From positions 1 to 43,471 of the forward strand of contig NZ_FMWS01000021.1 of assembly GCF_900103255.1 (NCBI RefSeq): DNA of 43,471 nucleotides, in the 5' to 3' direction. Both the position numbers and the translations under genes were made by a program. Shown in pieces: positions 31,879-39,069 of this stretch (within the stretch, counting starts at the first letter, position 1; each line of letters starts with the position of its first letter). Below the pieces are notes generated by a model. The model saw only the letters and a program-made list of their open reading frames with translations, made no database searches and had not been told where the DNA came from. This stretch comes from Gilliamella bombi. Its GTDB lineage: Bacteria > Pseudomonadota > Gammaproteobacteria > Enterobacterales > Orbaceae.

Positions 31879-32832
31879 TTAAAGAAGTTTCTTGACATGT
31901 TTACATGCTTCTTGATGGTTGTTTTGGCAAGCTTGTTGAAAGTAATATTTTGCAGTATAGGTATTTATTGCCACTCCCAATCCTTGTTGATAGATAATAC
32001 CTAAATTGTATTGTGCATCGGCATGATTTTGTTCAGCGGCAAACTGAAACCATCTTCTAGCTTCTGTATAATTTTTTTCAAACCATGAGCCATTATAATA
32101 TAACCAACCTAAGCTATATTGTGCTTCAGGATTTCCTCTTTGTGCAGATTGAGTGTCTAATTCTACACCTTTGGCAAAATCTTTTTTTAATCCACCTAAT
32201 CCATTGTAATACATATTTGCTAAATTATGCAGAGCATATATATTGCCTTGCTTAGCTGCTTGTTCATATAGTTCTCTAGCTTTGGTATAGTTTTTTTTGA
32301 CAACAATTCCAATATAATAAAATCTACCCAGATTGTTTTGAGCCTCTTTGTTGCCTAGTTGTACAGCTTTTTCGTAAAAATATTTTGCCTTAACATAGTC
32401 TTGGCTAATAGTATTATTATCTGAATTTTGTTCAATTCCTTTTAGATAATGTTTTTTTTCTGCAAATTCGTAAAGTGCCCCTAGATTAAATAGACCTAAA
32501 GCATAACCGCTTGAGGCTGCTTTTGCATAAAACTGCTTTGCTTTAAGCAAATTTTTCTTCACGCCGAGACCATAATTGTACATGTAGCCTAAACTTACTT
32601 GTGCATCGGCGTAATTTTGATTAGCCGATTTTTGGTACCATTCAATAGCTTTAGCATAATCTTGTTTAACGTTAAGACCGTACTGGTACATATAACCTAA
32701 CCGGTTTTGTGCTTCGGCACTATTTTGTTCTGTTGCTTTTTTATATTCAACATCAAAGTTATATTCTATATTTTGTGTTGCAAAAATAGGCGTATTTACA
32801 AATAAGTATATTATTAATAGTATTTTTTTCAT
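31879..32832 (-). CDS. Sel1-repeat (TPR-like) secreted protein, 317 aa
   Basis: A signal peptide (to about residue 18, ending IFA) is followed by about seven Sel1 repeats of the A-(E/D)-A-Q-x-x-L-G-x-x-Y-x-x-G-x-G-V-x-x-x-Y-x-K-A-x-x-W-(F/Y) type. The C-terminus has three cysteines (QQACQNNHQEACKH and one near). Sel1 proteins are solenoid scaffolds that bind peptides or other proteins; the partner is unknown. The repeat spacing is interrupted at about 120-140 by an insertion (KKHYLKGIEQNSDNNT). A neighbour of 201 residues at 32993 is a shorter paralogue in the same direction, and decayed copies of this C-terminus lie on both sides. Confidence 0.85.
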   Translation of the reverse strand: MKKILLIIYLFVNTPIFATQNIEYNFDVEYKKATEQNSAEAQNRLGYMYQYGLNVKQDYAKAIEWYQKSANQNYADAQVSLGYMYNYGLGVKKNLLKAKQFYAKAASSGYALGLFNLGALYEFAEKKHYLKGIEQNSDNNTISQDYVKAKYFYEKAVQLGNKEAQNNLGRFYYIGIVVKKNYTKARELYEQAAKQGNIYALHNLANMYYNGLGGLKKDFAKGVELDTQSAQRGNPEAQYSLGWLYYNGSWFEKNYTEARRWFQFAAEQNHADAQYNLGIIYQQGLGVAINTYTAKYYFQQACQNNHQEACKHVKKLL

Positions 32833-32992: not shown

Positions 32993-33598
32993 TTAACAAC
33001 CGCAATCGTTATTACTAGCTTGCTTTTTCTTGGCCTGTTGTTTGGCTACAATGGCATTAACCTTTTTTGTTACAACATTTAAGTGATCTTTAGCATCGGA
33101 ATAGTTTTGTTCAGCGGCCTTAGCAAACCAGTGTTTAGCTTTAAAATAGTTCTTTTTAACCCCTGTACCATTGTAATAGAGTGTTGCTAATGTATATTGA
33201 GCAACGGCATCTCCTTTTTTAGCTGCTTTTGTATCCCACTCAATTCCCTTAGAATAGTTTTGTTTTGTTCCTTGTCCATTATAATACAATAAGGCTAAAC
33301 TGTGTTGAGCTGCGATATGACCTTGATTGGCAGCCTTTTCAAACCACTCTTTTGCTTTAATATAATCAGGTTGTGCTTTTAATTGCTCATCAAAACCATA
33401 TTCGAAACCTTTAAATTGCCGTTTTTTAGTATATGAGCCATCAGCGTACATAAGACCTACATGGTATTGCGCCTCTGCATCTTTTTGTTCTGTTGCTTTT
33501 TGATATTCTTCATTAAAATCAAATAATGTTTGTTGATCAGCATTAACAGCAATACTAAAACATAAAACTAATGATAGTTTTGCAAAAAACTTTAGCAT
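32993..33598 (-). CDS. Sel1-repeat (TPR-like) secreted protein, 201 aa
   Basis: This paralogue of the 317-residue protein has a signal peptide (cut after VNA near residue 20), the shared FDFNEEYQKATEQKDAEAQ start of the first repeat, and about four Sel1 repeats. It then ends in a different, Lys/Gln-rich tail (AIVAKQQAKKKQASNNDCGC). The Cys-Gly-Cys end is unusual. The C-terminal part shared with its neighbour has been replaced; its ghost lies directly downstream in another frame, which suggests the tail was created by a fusion or frameshift. Confidence 0.85.
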   Translation of the reverse strand: MLKFFAKLSLVLCFSIAVNADQQTLFDFNEEYQKATEQKDAEAQYHVGLMYADGSYTKKRQFKGFEYGFDEQLKAQPDYIKAKEWFEKAANQGHIAAQHSLALLYYNGQGTKQNYSKGIEWDTKAAKKGDAVAQYTLATLYYNGTGVKKNYFKAKHWFAKAAEQNYSDAKDHLNVVTKKVNAIVAKQQAKKKQASNNDCGC

Positions 33599-33701: not shown

Positions 33702-33888
33702 AAATGGTGGGTCGTGAGCGATTATTCGGCACATCGTGTGCCTCACCCCTTCGGGGCCAACACTGCGTGTTGTTCAAATTTGTTCTAGACAAATTTGTCG
33801 AACGCTATCGTTCTCATCGCTTTTTTTTACTTGATTAGATTGATTGGATTTAGGAATTATTCAATAAAATGGTGGGTCGTGAGCGATT
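33702..33888 (-). repeat. rtT-like repeat of the tRNA-Lys 3' end with hairpin chain
   Basis: The last 19 nt of tRNA-Lys (33870-33888) recur at 33705-33723, with three more identical bases beyond the CCA, a 165-bp period. Between them lie five short perfect hairpins: 33728-33742 (GGCACA/TGTGCC), 33746-33756 (CCCC/GGGG), 33759-33771 (AACAC/GTGTT), 33775-33797 (CAAATTTGT/ACAAATTTG) and 33800-33813 (GAACG/CGTTC). AGCGAT at 33717-33722 can pair with ATCGCT at 33816-33821 and close them all. The layout, a repeat unit that ends in a copied tRNA 3' end, is like the rtT repeats after E. coli tyrT. Confidence 0.75.
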
Positions 33889-33945
33889 CGAACGCTCGAC
33901 CAACGGATTAAAAGTCCGCTGCTCTACCGACTGAGCTAACGACCC
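33870..33945 (-). tRNA. tRNA-Lys(UUU)
   Basis: 76 nt with encoded CCA. Acceptor GGGTCGT pairs with ACGACCC, D arm GCTCAGTTGGTAGAGC, anticodon loop with TTT, T arm GAGCGTTCGAATCGCTC. Last of three tRNAs transcribed leftward (Val-Val-Lys). Confidence 0.97.
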
Positions 33946-33955
33946 ATCTTAAAGA

Positions 33956-34031
33956 TGGTGGGTGATACCGGGTTCGAACCAGTGACCCCCTCCTTGTAAG
34001 GGAGGTGCTCTCCCAACTGAGCTAATCACCC
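33956..34031 (-). tRNA. tRNA-Val(UAC), second copy
   Basis: 76 nt with encoded CCA. Acceptor GGGTGAT/ATCACCC, anticodon TAC in CCCTTACAAGG, T loop GTTCGAACC. Identical over its whole length to the copy at 34067. Ten bases separate it from tRNA-Lys. Confidence 0.97.
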
Positions 34032-34066: not shown

Positions 34067-34142
34067 TGGTGGGTGATACCGGGTTCGAACCAGTGACCCC
34101 CTCCTTGTAAGGGAGGTGCTCTCCCAACTGAGCTAATCACCC
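34067..34142 (-). tRNA. tRNA-Val(UAC), first copy
   Basis: Same sequence as the tRNA-Val at 33956, 35 bases upstream of it. First gene of the Val-Val-Lys operon, like E. coli valUXY-lysV. Confidence 0.97.
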
Positions 34143-34159: not shown

Positions 34160-34187
34160 ATTATAAGGCACGACTTATTTCAGTCAA
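34160..34187 (-). promoter_or_regulatory. Promoter of the Val-Val-Lys tRNA operon
   Basis: On the minus strand TTGACT (34187-34182), a 16-base spacer and a perfect TATAAT (34165-34160), followed by a fairly GC-rich start region (GCACATCC), as expected for growth-rate-controlled stable RNA promoters. An A/T-rich stretch lies just upstream and could act as an UP element. Confidence 0.85.
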
Positions 34188-34345: not shown

Positions 34346-35296
34346 ATGATTTTTAATAAAAGTAGCGTCATTATTTATGTCGAACCTACAATTTTGCGCT
34401 ATAGGATTGAAAATTCAGTTAAGCGAAATGCTACAACAGCCACTAGCGAAGATCTGATTGTATTTAATTATCAAAATGAAAATGATATAGATATTTTTAT
34501 TGATGAGTTACGAAAAAAAATTTCTGAGCGTGCGGTATTTGAACTTAATTTGGATATCAATTTAATTCAAATACAACAATTAACCTTACCTGATGTAAAG
34601 CTAAATTTAAATGAATTGAGTTTATACGTTGAAGCTAACATCTATAAATTATTCCAAGTGTCGGCTAAAAGTGTATTTTTTGATTTTGTTTATTCAACTG
34701 AACATACAAAACAAATTACAGTGATGATAGTTGAACGTCATTATATTGAAAATTGGATCAATCTTTTTAAAAAGCATCAACGACTATTAACTTTTGTAGG
34801 TTGTCGATTTGAAAATAATAAAGTTAATTTTTTACCTTGGCGGCAAGAGAAACAAACAAAACATCAACGACAATTGACAGGCGTGGTTGTTGGATTTATG
34901 GGCATAATAAGTTGTTTGCTCTGTTATTTGTGGGTACACGCTAAAAATGATTTACAAACTTATGATGAAAAATTACTACACCAGCAAAAGATAGTACAAA
35001 AATTAACTGAAGAATTAGTTAATTATTTGCCTAATCCATCATTAAGCCAAAAACAAATTCAGCAATCCTTATTATTGCTTTCAGCGCAGTTACCTTCAGT
35101 AATTTGGCTTGATTCTTTCTATTATGAACCTAAAAAAGTAGCAATAGAAGGGCAAAGCTTTAGTTATGTCGAACTTACTCATTTTAACCAAAATTTGTTA
35201 ATGCTAAAAAATATCGCTAAAAGTCAAATAAAGACCGTATCGACCAATAAGAATAATTTATTTTTTGAAATGGAAATGGAACTTAATGAACAGTGA
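34346..35296 (+). CDS. PilM-PilN (HofM-HofN) fusion protein
   Basis: This 316-residue protein seems to join two components. Residues 1-160 resemble HofM/ComA (a degenerate PilM-like actin fold). NFLPWRQEKQTKHQRQ at about 160-175 is the hallmark start of PilN/HofN, normally the N-terminus of a separate protein, and is followed by one membrane helix (TGVVVGFMGIISCLLCYLW), a coiled coil and a small C-terminal alpha/beta domain. No stop or frameshift lies between. The PilM part is some 100 residues shorter than E. coli HofM (259). It would form the inner-membrane platform for DNA uptake with the next three products. Confidence 0.75.
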   Translation: MIFNKSSVIIYVEPTILRYRIENSVKRNATTATSEDLIVFNYQNENDIDIFIDELRKKISERAVFELNLDINLIQIQQLTLPDVKLNLNELSLYVEANIYKLFQVSAKSVFFDFVYSTEHTKQITVMIVERHYIENWINLFKKHQRLLTFVGCRFENNKVNFLPWRQEKQTKHQRQLTGVVVGFMGIISCLLCYLWVHAKNDLQTYDEKLLHQQKIVQKLTEELVNYLPNPSLSQKQIQQSLLLLSAQLPSVIWLDSFYYEPKKVAIEGQSFSYVELTHFNQNLLMLKNIAKSQIKTVSTNKNNLFFEMEMELNEQ

Positions 35297-35753
35297 TTTT
35301 TTCTATCGCCCAGTTTGGCAACAGTACGCATTGTGTATTTTATGTTGTTTAGCATTTTTTGTTATTGTTTATCAACTTTTTATTAAAGAAGGCCAGCAAC
35401 AAGCTGAGCTAAAGGCCGAGTTATATCAGCAAAAGATTACTGAAATTGAATTGTTACAGGCAAAAGTAAGGCGTTATCAGGCAAGTAAAAATAGTTTATA
35501 TAGTTTGATATCTGAAAAAGAATTAGCGTTGGCTATTGAACAAAATCATCTAACACTAAGTTCCTTTAAACATTATCAAACTGACAATACGGTTAATTGG
35601 GATATTGAATTAGAAGGGCAATTTTTTGATTTTATGGCTTTAATTTCATCATTAACGGATGATTTTTATTATCTTGATTTTCAGAATCTAAAAATCAGCA
35701 AGCAAGAACAGCAGTTACAGATCATGTTTACGCTCTTATTTAAAAAGTCATAA
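35286..35753 (+). CDS. PilO-like (HofO/ComC) inner-membrane platform protein
   Basis: The ATG at 35286 gives 155 residues. It overlaps the end of the previous gene by 11 bases; a longer frame from 35265 adds MKWKWNL and is less likely. One membrane helix (YALCILCCLAFFVIVYQLF) near the N-terminus is followed by a coiled coil and a small periplasmic domain, the PilO plan. It should pair with the PilN half of the fusion. Sequence similarity is low, so the call rests on layout and operon position. Confidence 0.7.
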   Translation: MNSDFFYRPVWQQYALCILCCLAFFVIVYQLFIKEGQQQAELKAELYQQKITEIELLQAKVRRYQASKNSLYSLISEKELALAIEQNHLTLSSFKHYQTDNTVNWDIELEGQFFDFMALISSLTDDFYYLDFQNLKISKQEQQLQIMFTLLFKKS

Positions 35754-35754
35754 A

Positions 35755-36126
35755 GTGAAACGTTATATCTATCAATTTATTAGTTTATTAATTGTTATCT
35801 GTTTTGAACTAAAGGCCGATGTGTCTTTAGAACGAGATCCTTTTCAACAAAATTACTCAGTTTCTTGTAGTGAGCAAACGACGTTACTGCTTGAACAAAT
35901 TCAAGTTTGGCATTTTAGGGGAAGCATGAATCAAATTGCTCAGAATTATCAGCAAATTTGGTTAACATCTGAAAATCAATGGTTAGCAATAACTGATGAT
36001 GTGGTGCCTAACGTTTTGTTTCCTTGGCGTTTGCAATCTTTATTAAACGATAAAATAACGTGGCAGGCCGATTTGCCTGATTATTGCCATAGTACTGTAT
36101 CATGGACAATGTCGCTAAATGAATAA
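35755..36126 (+). CDS. PilP-like (HofP/ComD) protein
   Basis: The 123-residue product starts at a GTG one base after the preceding stop. It has a signal peptide (to about 21) and then LERDPFQQ, which is the short Arg-Asp-Pro-Phe motif seen at the start of mature PilP proteins. The rest (LLLEQIQVWHFRG) fits the beta domain that touches the secretin. It overlaps the secretin gene by eight bases. PilP links the inner platform to the outer-membrane secretin. Confidence 0.75.
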   Translation: MKRYIYQFISLLIVICFELKADVSLERDPFQQNYSVSCSEQTTLLLEQIQVWHFRGSMNQIAQNYQQIWLTSENQWLAITDDVVPNVLFPWRLQSLLNDKITWQADLPDYCHSTVSWTMSLNE

Positions 36127-37456
36127 TAACAATAGTAAGAATCAAAAGCATCAATGGCTAGAACAATGTATTTGCAGATTGATTAAAGCAATAATAAGTT
36201 TGTTAGCTGTAATAATTTTTATATTTGTAACAATGATCATAAATACAACTTACGCAAATATGAAGCAATCAGTAAATGTCGATTCGCAACAAAATATCTC
36301 AATGACATTCTACCAAACCGACATTGCAATTATCTTACAAGCTTTAGCCGATAATCAGCAGATGAATTTAGTCATGACCGAAGATATACCAATTAAGCAA
36401 ACCATTAAACTCAACAACGTTGATTGGCACAAAGCGCTAAAGATCATATTAGATTCGGCAAATTTACAAGCCGAAATTGACGATAATATTTTGTTCGTAT
36501 CTAAAGCGATAGAACCAGAAGTTTTATTGAAAAAACAGCAATCTGAACAAAGAGAAAAAGAATTAAACCAACCACTTAATTCTTTGCCTATAGCTGTTAA
36601 TCATGCAGACCCAGCCACCTTAATTGAAACAATTCAACAACAAGGATTATTATCAGAACGGGGCAAGATTACGCTCGATAAGCGGACAAATTCGCTTATC
36701 ATTACCGATTTAGCTAAACAATTTGCTAATATCCAAAAATTAGTTAAAACACTGGATAAACCAATGCCTCAAGTTCATATTTCAGCGCATATTGTTACTA
36801 TGAATGAGGAGAGCATGTCAGAGCTGGGTATAAAATGGGGATATTCAGGAAAATCATCGCAATTATTAGATAAGTTCGATGTGGGGCTTGGAGCTAGTTA
36901 TCCCACCACAACTGTAGGTTTTAATTTGGCTAAAATATCTGGTCATTTACTTAATTTAGAGTTATCAGCGCTCGAATCTGAAAATCAACTTGAAATTATA
37001 GCCAGCCCAAATTTGTTAACAGCCAATCAAAATATGGCGTCGATAAAACAAGGTACTGAAATTCCTTACGAGGTTTCTAGTGGTAGTAATGGTGCAACAT
37101 CTATTGAATTTAAGCCTGCGGTGTTAGGGCTAGAGGTCACACCGAAAGTACTAACAGATGATAGGATGATTTTAGACTTATACATTACGCAAAATACGGC
37201 TGGTCGCTCAATAAAACGTAGTGATGGTGGTGAGGCGATAGCTATTGATACACAAGAGATCAAAACACAAGTTCAAATAAAGAATGGCGAAACAGTAGTT
37301 TTAGGTGGTATTTTTCAACAGCTTAACACCAATGGGCAACAAAAAGTACCTGGTGCGGGCGATGTGCCCATTATTGGAAATATATTTAAATATAATAGAA
37401 AAAAACAGCAAAAACGAGAGTTGGTTATTTTTATTACACCGCAATTGGTTGAGTAA
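36119..37456 (+). CDS. hofQ: DNA uptake secretin (HofQ/ComE, PilQ family)
   Basis: The 445-residue protein has a long N-terminal signal segment (IISLLAVIIFIFVTMIINTTYA), the N0/STN-type domain ISMTFYQTDIAIILQALADN with DIPIKQTIKLNNVDWHKAL, then an N1 domain, and a secretin core with VHISAHIVTMNEESMSELGI, GTEIPYE and the end GAGDVPIIGNIFKYNRKKQQ followed by ELVIFITPQLVE. Secretins form the outer-membrane channel for type IV pili or DNA uptake. Length fits HofQ/ComE (412-445) and not the longer PilQ. Last gene in the operon. Confidence 0.92.
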   Translation: MNNNNSKNQKHQWLEQCICRLIKAIISLLAVIIFIFVTMIINTTYANMKQSVNVDSQQNISMTFYQTDIAIILQALADNQQMNLVMTEDIPIKQTIKLNNVDWHKALKIILDSANLQAEIDDNILFVSKAIEPEVLLKKQQSEQREKELNQPLNSLPIAVNHADPATLIETIQQQGLLSERGKITLDKRTNSLIITDLAKQFANIQKLVKTLDKPMPQVHISAHIVTMNEESMSELGIKWGYSGKSSQLLDKFDVGLGASYPTTTVGFNLAKISGHLLNLELSALESENQLEIIASPNLLTANQNMASIKQGTEIPYEVSSGSNGATSIEFKPAVLGLEVTPKVLTDDRMILDLYITQNTAGRSIKRSDGGEAIAIDTQEIKTQVQIKNGETVVLGGIFQQLNTNGQQKVPGAGDVPIIGNIFKYNRKKQQKRELVIFITPQLVE

Positions 37457-38664: not shown

Positions 38665-39069
38665 TCAATTTAATTCGATTTGCTTTAAGTAAAAACGTAA
38701 TGTACGCCAATCATTAGGTTGAAGATTATCAACCATTAATAATAGCGTACAGCGTTTGCCATTATGTCGTGATTTTAAGTTTAAAATAATGATATAACGA
38801 AATATCAACGGTCTATGCATTAAGTACCAACGTTGTTTGTGCCAGTATATTTGATTGATACAGTGAAATAGCGCAAATTCGTCTTTAATAGTTTTGAAAT
38901 AACGTAGACTGTGCCACCATTCTATTATTAATAATAGAATAATAACAAAGGTATAACAATTTAAGTATGTGTTAGCAAACATAACTAAACAAAGTGCGAT
39001 TAACACTGAGTAAAAAAGAGTTGAAATCAGTAATTGTATCTTTGATATGCTAAGTTTTATGCTCCACAT
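38665..39069 (-). CDS. YgfX (CptA) family membrane protein
   Basis: The 134-residue protein has two adjacent membrane helices (about 12-48), a basic linker, and a beta-rich end with CTLLLMVDNLQPNDWRTLRFYLKQ that lines up with the end of E. coli YgfX (WLAADSMDEAEWRDLRRILLQQ). YgfX was described as a toxin that affects the cytoskeleton proteins MreB and FtsZ, with YgfY (SdhE) as partner. sdhE is not adjacent here, so it is an orphan in this location. It is convergent with tusA. Confidence 0.7.
   Translation of the reverse strand: MWSIKLSISKIQLLISTLFYSVLIALCLVMFANTYLNCYTFVIILLLIIEWWHSLRYFKTIKDEFALFHCINQIYWHKQRWYLMHRPLIFRYIIILNLKSRHNGKRCTLLLMVDNLQPNDWRTLRFYLKQIELN

Follow-up and report, generated by a model that had tools for sequence, protein, structure and literature searches.

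The region immediately downstream of a tRNA-Lys gene in Gilliamella bombi, a bacterium of the bee gut (Orbaceae), carries a tRNA-linked repeat (TLR) of the RtT type, and this membership is well supported. The unit is probably part of the 3ˊ trailer of a transcript that also carries two tRNA-Val genes and the tRNA-Lys gene, from which processing would release it as a structured RNA. The window is the whole stretch of 43,471 nucleotides that was analysed, and its relevant features are listed below in the order of transcription. Scores labelled R1 come from a covariance model built only from 21 Gilliamella tRNA-Lys units.

34160-34187, minus strand: sigma-70-like promoter candidate (TTGACT, 16 nt, TATAAT) a short distance before the first tRNA-Val gene, with 11 of 12 consensus matches
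34067-34142, minus strand: tRNA-Val(TAC)
33956-34031, minus strand: tRNA-Val(TAC)
33870-33945, minus strand: tRNA-Lys(TTT), whose 3ˊ end is repeated in the unit
33824-33869, minus strand: A/T-rich spacer from the tRNA CCA to the structured unit; this is where the repeat evolves fast
33705-33823, minus strand: TLR, an RtT-like unit; 144 bits with R1, of whose 21 training units it is one, and 33.3 bits with RF00391 over 33705-33838
33809-33821, minus strand: the tRNA-Lys T-arm copied in inverted orientation (AGCGAT-GAG-AACG), which supplies the 5ˊ strand to both hairpin 1 and the outer stem, as judged from sequence and from other tRNA types
33816-33821, minus strand: 5ˊ arm of the 6-bp closing (outer) stem
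33800-33813, minus strand: hairpin 1 (H1), from folding and covariation
33798-33806, minus strand: direct copy of the T-stem 5ˊ strand and T-loop start, AGCGTTCGA, as judged from sequence and from other tRNA types
33775-33797, minus strand: hairpin 2 (H2), with loop CTAGA here and CNGGA in most relatives
33758-33772, minus strand: hairpin 3 (H3), from covariation
33745-33757, minus strand: hairpin 4 (H4), from covariation
33728-33742, minus strand: hairpin 5 (H5), with loop region CACGATG here and CAGGA(T/C)G in many relatives
33723-33797, minus strand: hairpin chain H2 to H5, which interrupts the copied T-loop and elsewhere also occurs without T-arm sequences
33717-33722, minus strand: 3ˊ arm of the outer stem, formed by the 3ˊ half of the copied T-arm, from folding and covariation
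33702-33723, minus strand: repeat of the terminal 19 nt of tRNA-Lys (exact at 19/19 nt) together with three flanking bases
32993-33598, minus strand: Sel1-repeat protein gene, the next gene on the same strand, from a Pfam scan

The first-pass annotation had described a repeat of the tRNA-Lys 3ˊ end (19 nt plus three flanking bases) 165 bp away, and this repeat is exact (33867-33888 is identical to 33702-33723) and far beyond chance expectation. The five hairpins that it placed within fewer than 90 bp are likewise real, with a span of 86 bp, as is the proposed 6-bp outer stem that uses the copied tRNA end. Specifically, the minimum-free-energy fold of the minus strand consists of this stem and the five hairpins, with a predicted energy of -41.67 kcal/mol (z -3.02; 2 of 200 shuffled sequences fold equally well). 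In the direction of transcription the unit, which is on the minus strand, follows the 3ˊ end of tRNA-Lys, and the order of tRNA-Val, tRNA-Val, tRNA-Lys and unit on one strand would permit a single transcript. No terminator-like site was found on the minus strand between 33500 and 34400, and the tRNA region holds four promoter-like sites compared to 2.8 in shuffled sequences, so that the site at 34160-34187 is to be read as a consensus match only. Together, a promoter-like site before tRNA-Val and the lack of a minus-strand terminator-like site before the unit favour readthrough into it. The full unit is present once in the genome from which the window derives, and a search at the second tRNA-Lys of that genome (contig C102) detected none.

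Comparisons with Rfam models place the unit among known RNAs. The RtT model RF00391 matches positions 33705-33838 over its full length (model positions 1-130 of 130) with 33.3 bits and an E-value of 3.9e-5, although this is below the gathering cut-off of 45 bits. In the reverse direction, R1 recovers classical RtT units, with 62 matches (E up to 1) in 40 of 80 loci selected from RF00391 matches, and these units sit at tRNA-Tyr, tRNA-Pro, tRNA-Lys and tRNA-Ser. The GAUGAGAA and (A/G)UAAUC motifs and a tail derived from the local tRNA are also common to RtT and the window unit. Thus, what had been proposed as an analogy with rtT holds as homology. A tRNA is present in all but one of the 80 RtT-selected loci. 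In 68 of them (Tyr, Pro, Lys and Ser), the last 15 nt of the local tRNA are repeated with no more than two mismatches at a downstream distance of up to 1.5 kb, annotated tRNA ends excluded. A tail copy defined in this way (last 14-15 nt, at most two mismatches, which a decayed tRNA gene would also satisfy) is absent from 12 of these 80 loci and from 9/30 order-level and 13/29 class-level loci selected with R1.

TLRs have been known since 1978. PMC8144298 describes 22 of them at ten loci in E. coli K-12, with 18-19 bp at the 3ˊ end that are identical to the gene upstream, and the suggestion that the Gilliamella unit represents a new class of element was therefore dropped. The features given there for E. 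coli TLRs, including RrA, RrB and RrF, are a location in a tRNA or rRNA operon, a 3ˊ end identical over 18-19 nt to that of the preceding gene, single or multiple copies at a locus, and several hairpins. The window unit lies downstream of Val, Val and Lys genes on the same strand, shares 19/19 nt with the 3ˊ end of the upstream gene, and occurs once in the window and in tandem in relatives. Because every testable TLR feature is present, we regard the unit as a new and divergent TLR member. It differs from the E. coli TLRs in its host genus, its association with tRNA-Lys, its diverged sequence, an AT-rich hairpin 2 and the lack of a GGA loop, and unlike the E. coli rrn TLRs it has no terminator pair around it.

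Two further comparisons are informative. AaHKsRNA22 (RF02902), an sRNA of Aggregatibacter, has a hairpin chain of similar layout and matches the window unit over its full length with 32.9 bits, although the gathering threshold of 39.8 bits is not reached and 15 loci of family f9 (which we take to be Pasteurellaceae) have no tRNA within about 3 kb around each chain. Arrc20 and Arrc21 of Actinobacillus pleuropneumoniae are, according to PMC4986893, RtT-family RNAs located beside tRNA-Asn and tRNA-Lys and visible on Northern blots, but they belong to another family and are placed upstream of the tRNAs in that study; this comparison is by description. Matches to plastid and MicC models in Rfam E-value scans were taken for chance or tRNA antisense.

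The unit is not restricted to the genome of the window. A DNA search with a 131-base query gave matches in 26/60 genomes, including the window's own, and all but one belong to the same genus. At least 95 of the 131 bases are covered in 16/60 genomes, and the remaining matches are to the tRNA end or to single hairpins. At the Val-Val-Lys site, tandem units occur in several relatives, with five in G030, four in G006, three in G029 and two plus a fragment in G022. In G015, nine matches spaced 168 bp apart and carrying tRNA-Lys tails lie at a contig end, with no tRNA on the 2.2 kb read, and eight of the 168-bp repeats are nearly identical. For arrays that lie at contig ends, unit counts are lower bounds. 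Sequence identity between units is 97.7% within an array (49 pairs) and 80.2% between genomes (370 pairs). The spacer is the most variable part, with 95% identity within an array and 58% between genomes, compared to a between-genome identity of 0.91 for the structured part.

Among 21 tRNA-Lys loci on named Gilliamella contigs, nine carry a strong unit (>100 bits; several of these are assemblies used to build R1), six carry a degraded unit (28.9-81.2 bits), and six have no detectable unit, so that R1 scores form a series that falls from 150 to 29 bits. All six loci without a detectable unit retain the Val-Val-Lys order. The degraded and undetected cases indicate that the Gilliamella unit is dispensable, and it turns over quickly. 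The loci from other Orbaceae that were located via leuS (L105 and L107-L111) do not include the tRNA-Lys end and hence are uninformative on absence.

With its training restricted to Gilliamella, R1 nonetheless finds matches in 84/247 genomes of the order, in 118/321 genomes of the class Gammaproteobacteria (101/243 genera) and in 53/299 genomes of a phylum sample. RF00391 matches 84/394 genomes of the order and RF02902 chains occur in 34/295. All of these searches considered no more than 8-14 candidates per genome under strict filters, and per-genome counts are thus lower bounds. By comparison, Rfam at its gathering cut-offs annotates RtT in one of 20 class-wide loci submitted to it (from a set of 29), and the family known from E. 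coli as TLRs therefore looks wider than current annotation suggests. Among the best class-wide R1 loci, 22/29 contain a tRNA or tmRNA gene. A tail copy of the local tRNA or tmRNA is found in 16/29 of these loci and in 21/30 of the best loci from the order (37/59 together), and the genes that supply the tail are those for tRNA-Lys, Ser, Gln, Arg, Tyr, Asp and Pro and for tmRNA. The R1-selected loci of the order that adjoin tRNA-Glu have no tail copy. Two loci (L359 and L434) have TLR-like units downstream of the tmRNA gene ssrA that carry the tmRNA 3ˊ end with no more than two mismatches in 14. Outside of the class, R1 matches in the phylum sample are confined to 32 genomes of family f215 and one of f230.

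The stems covary, which the first-pass annotation had named as the expected support for a structured RNA. In the 21 Gilliamella units, 98.3% of cells are paired, compared to 22-39% when stem partners are slid, and two-sided changes are observed in five pairs distributed over four of the five hairpins. The same units show no excess of further pair types (8, with 8.9 in shuffles). In a class-wide alignment of 85 distinct units, 95.6% of cells are paired and 36/37 pairs have two-sided changes, with 637 two-sided cells compared to 166.5 in shuffles (score 0.536 versus 0.164); these units come from 55 hand-chosen loci with tRNA-linked cases preferred, and their alignment is fitted to the model, which favours the pairing figures.

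Comparison of tRNA types shows how the unit is assembled. It begins with an inverted copy of the T-arm, in which the central TCG is replaced by GAG. The T-stem 5ˊ strand and TTCGA come next, followed by the hairpin chain, and the unit is completed by what remains of the T-loop and by the T-stem 3ˊ strand, acceptor strand and CCA. As judged from this order, the unit is a T-arm palindrome, composed of an inverted and a direct copy of the local T-arm, that is interrupted in the T-loop by a generic hairpin chain. The inverted copy pairs with both halves of the T-arm and in this way forms H1 and the outer stem. The four outer-arm bases form on average 3.12/4 Watson-Crick pairs with the T-stem 3ˊ strand of the local tRNA and 1.56/4 with that of non-local tRNAs, and all four are paired in 31% versus 1.3% of comparisons, in a set of 86 distinct units whose counts are not independent because they come from related genomes. 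In alignment A1, the 19-nt tail is exact in 5/21 Gilliamella units and has one or two extra bases inside in 15/21, and the last 15 nt are exact in 19/21.

The H2-H5 chain has a distribution of its own. Its sequence is found in 19/35 genomes of the genus, with a maximum of 26 matches in a single one (G022, tRNA-Lys units counted). The same chain is found in intergenic repeats (L173-L176, L178 and L179), in dispersed palindromes, and in the window's own genome at 25532-25642 of contig C42 (G000, locus L316; 53 bits), where no tRNA is present in the surrounding 3 kb. The expectation that the spacer would always lie next to a tRNA is therefore only partly borne out, since it recurs beside tRNAs in relatives whereas the hairpin chain also stands alone. 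In three genomes (G009, G016 and G019), the chain interrupts Rhs-type genes at one site (site A; L162, L163, L164, L168 and L171), and in these genomes and G017 it does so in the opposite orientation at a second site (site B; L165, L166, L167, L169 and L170). The Rhs label derives from a Pfam RHS match to one upstream piece (E 1.6e-16) and elsewhere from reading of the translations. The reading frame through the chain is broken at both places that were translated, no target duplication was seen at the chain-interrupted Rhs genes, and in G019 one contig holds both interrupted genes and an uninterrupted Rhs paralogue (L391). The chain resembles a module capable of moving.

The link to the RF02902 chains of f9 is more distant. 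R1, when applied to 33 chain loci, matched none of 12 f9 loci, nor L348, and these chains are thus tied to the window only through RF02902 below its cut-off, making the kinship weaker. At L321, and in part at L319 and L327, the f9 chain is flanked by inverted AAGTGCGGT-type sequences, an arrangement that would fit insertion into an uptake-sequence hairpin; we presume that these flanking sequences are the uptake signal. A speculative extension, which we consider improbable, is that the chain constitutes an independent mobile structured RNA module across Gammaproteobacteria. Such a module would lodge in hairpin-forming sites (copied T-arms at tRNA or tmRNA ends, intergenic palindromes and perhaps uptake-sequence hairpins) as well as in Rhs genes without target duplication, and would typically carry two GGA loops of the CsrA type. 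Next to tRNA and tmRNA genes, the module would become a TLR that ties CsrA availability to stable-RNA transcription, and the E. coli tRNA TLRs and the window unit would be degenerate remnants.

Loop sequences in the wider family are conserved in a manner that brings CsrA into consideration. Of the 85 units, 60 have GGA in the loop of H2 and 51 in that of H5 (21.7 and 19.6 after letter shuffling), but only one has it in the H1 loop, none in the H3 loop and six in the H4 loop; counted by locus, the numbers are 42/54 for H2 and 34/54 for H5. The H2 loop reads C-N-G-G-A, where N is free (top-letter frequencies of 0.82, 0.32, 0.90, 0.88 and 0.96), above stems of variable sequence. Both GGA loops are present in 47/85 units with a spacing of 43-57 nt (median 50). 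PMC8144298 gives GGA in a hairpin loop as the canonical CsrA motif, reports that three TLRs of E. coli rrn operons are transcribed, processed and bound by Hfq and CsrA in vitro, and assigns 19 tRNA-operon TLRs values below 0.01 in a predictor of CsrA antagonists. TLR RNAs with two GGA loops about 50 nt apart might titrate CsrA and couple tRNA transcription to the Csr system, a reading that we rate as quite doubtful. The GGA excess, the consistent spacing, the in vitro binding and the presence of csrA in the window's genome are all in its favour. Weighing against it are the low predictor values, the modest effects of RrB in vivo (PMC8144298), and the selection of the 85 units from 55 loci with tRNA-linked cases preferred. 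Also, the H2 signal may have been favoured by a search model with GGA in 20/21 training units, which hardly applies to H5 (4/21). The several GGA-bearing hairpin loops typical of CsrB/C-type antagonists are absent from the window unit, whose loops are CTAGA and CGA, and this copy argues against a CsrA role for itself.

For the window unit, we favour its reading as an RtT-type TLR in a tRNA trailer. RNA polymerase would read through the tRNAs into the unit, and the trailer would adopt a branched fold whose closing stem takes one strand from the copied tRNA 3ˊ end. Processing enzymes would then cleave twice, behind the true CCA and close to the copied one, and a structured small RNA of about 120-165 nt is the likely product, by analogy with known members. 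The match of the copied tail to the local tRNA might be maintained by selection on pairing or on processing, by conversion and unequal exchange among the repeats, or by both. Computation shows the anatomy, the homology, the covarying structure, the tandem amplification in relatives and the local-tRNA match on which this reading draws; transcription, cleavage and release are inferred. Points that count against it are the missed Rfam cut-off, the dispensability of the unit, the tail that is exact in a minority of Gilliamella units, the lack of a pair-type excess, the loci without a tail, and the original rtT starvation phenotype, which was retracted (PMC8144298, citing Bosl and Kersten 1994). 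Candidates that remain for function are a processing signal or trailer, CsrA binding in the GGA-bearing relatives, and functionless persistence.

The last of these would mean that the chain once entered a duplicated tRNA end and is now both maintained by tandem exchange and decaying, with its RNA idle, which is possible though on balance we doubt it. The falling R1 scores with six empty loci, the near-identity of units within arrays, including the eight repeats of G015, the occurrence of chains in Rhs genes and dispersed palindromes, and the loss of both GGA loops in the window unit all agree with such a history. Indeed, the earlier alternative of a mobile or decaying element has gained support from the decay series at the 21 loci and the uninterrupted Rhs paralogue beside interrupted ones. 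However, the two-sided changes in nearly all class-wide pairs and the conserved CNGGA loops over variable stems indicate that selection on the RNA structure operates, or has operated, in some lineage. Some of the pairing could instead be kept by template switching or conversion between T-arm copies (quasi-palindrome repair), which would maintain matched arms in the outer stem and H1 because these are inverted and direct copies of one sequence. We think this rather unlikely as the cause of the matching, because H2-H5 are unrelated to the tRNA and covary too, and GU pairs are present in the arms.

Rho-dependent termination is known from the tyrT repeats and suggests yet another role, in which the folded unit terminates or attenuates the tRNA transcript before the Sel1 gene, with Rho or RNA stability involved. 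The minus strand has no intrinsic terminator-like site between tRNA-Lys and this same-strand gene, and an attenuator role has been proposed for rtT-like elements (PMC2965389). Nevertheless, a long U-tract after the stem is absent and the Val-Val-Lys order persists at the six Gilliamella loci where no unit was detected, making this role unlikely. The 19-nt direct repeat at the tRNA 3ˊ end begins in the T-loop, which makes it a usual kind of integrase target, and could in principle be an attachment site left behind by an integrative element. Such a footprint is very improbable, since a conserved structured unit that occurs in tandem and at many tRNAs lies between the repeats. The first-pass annotation had named an integrase gene as the sign of an ordinary att site; a Pfam scan of 10 neighbouring ORFs (two of which matched no family) detected none, and the footprint was rejected on this basis.

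Apart from the rrn TLRs that it adds as CsrA binders, PMC8144298 ascribes no known function to TLRs; it also mentions a proposed role as an RNase E signal and the observation of RrA, RrB and RrF as discrete RNAs in E. coli. Other reports note a covarying tandem GA motif in RtT (PMC7657543) and a similarity to BIME/REP elements (PMC2965389). The listings and passages on RtT and TLRs that we found contain no mention of a T-arm palindrome, a class-wide spread beyond Rfam, a two-GGA pattern in tRNA-linked units, or a chain in Rhs genes. A covariance model for relatives, the dissection of the unit into T-arm palindrome and generic chain, and the conserved pattern of two GGA loops are the results of this analysis, and they make the purpose of TLRs and their matching to tRNAs directly testable.

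Several other genes are located near the repeat. Directly downstream of the tRNA and TLR region is an adjacent pair of Sel1-repeat genes on the minus strand (31879-32832 and 32993-33598). Divergent from the tRNA genes are PilN-like and secretin genes of the type IV pilus or type II secretion type (34346-37456, plus strand). Farther away, the minus-strand gene at 38665-39069 encodes a protein that matches the Pfam family Cpta_toxin (E 4.1e-23), a membrane-bound toxin of a toxin-antitoxin system.
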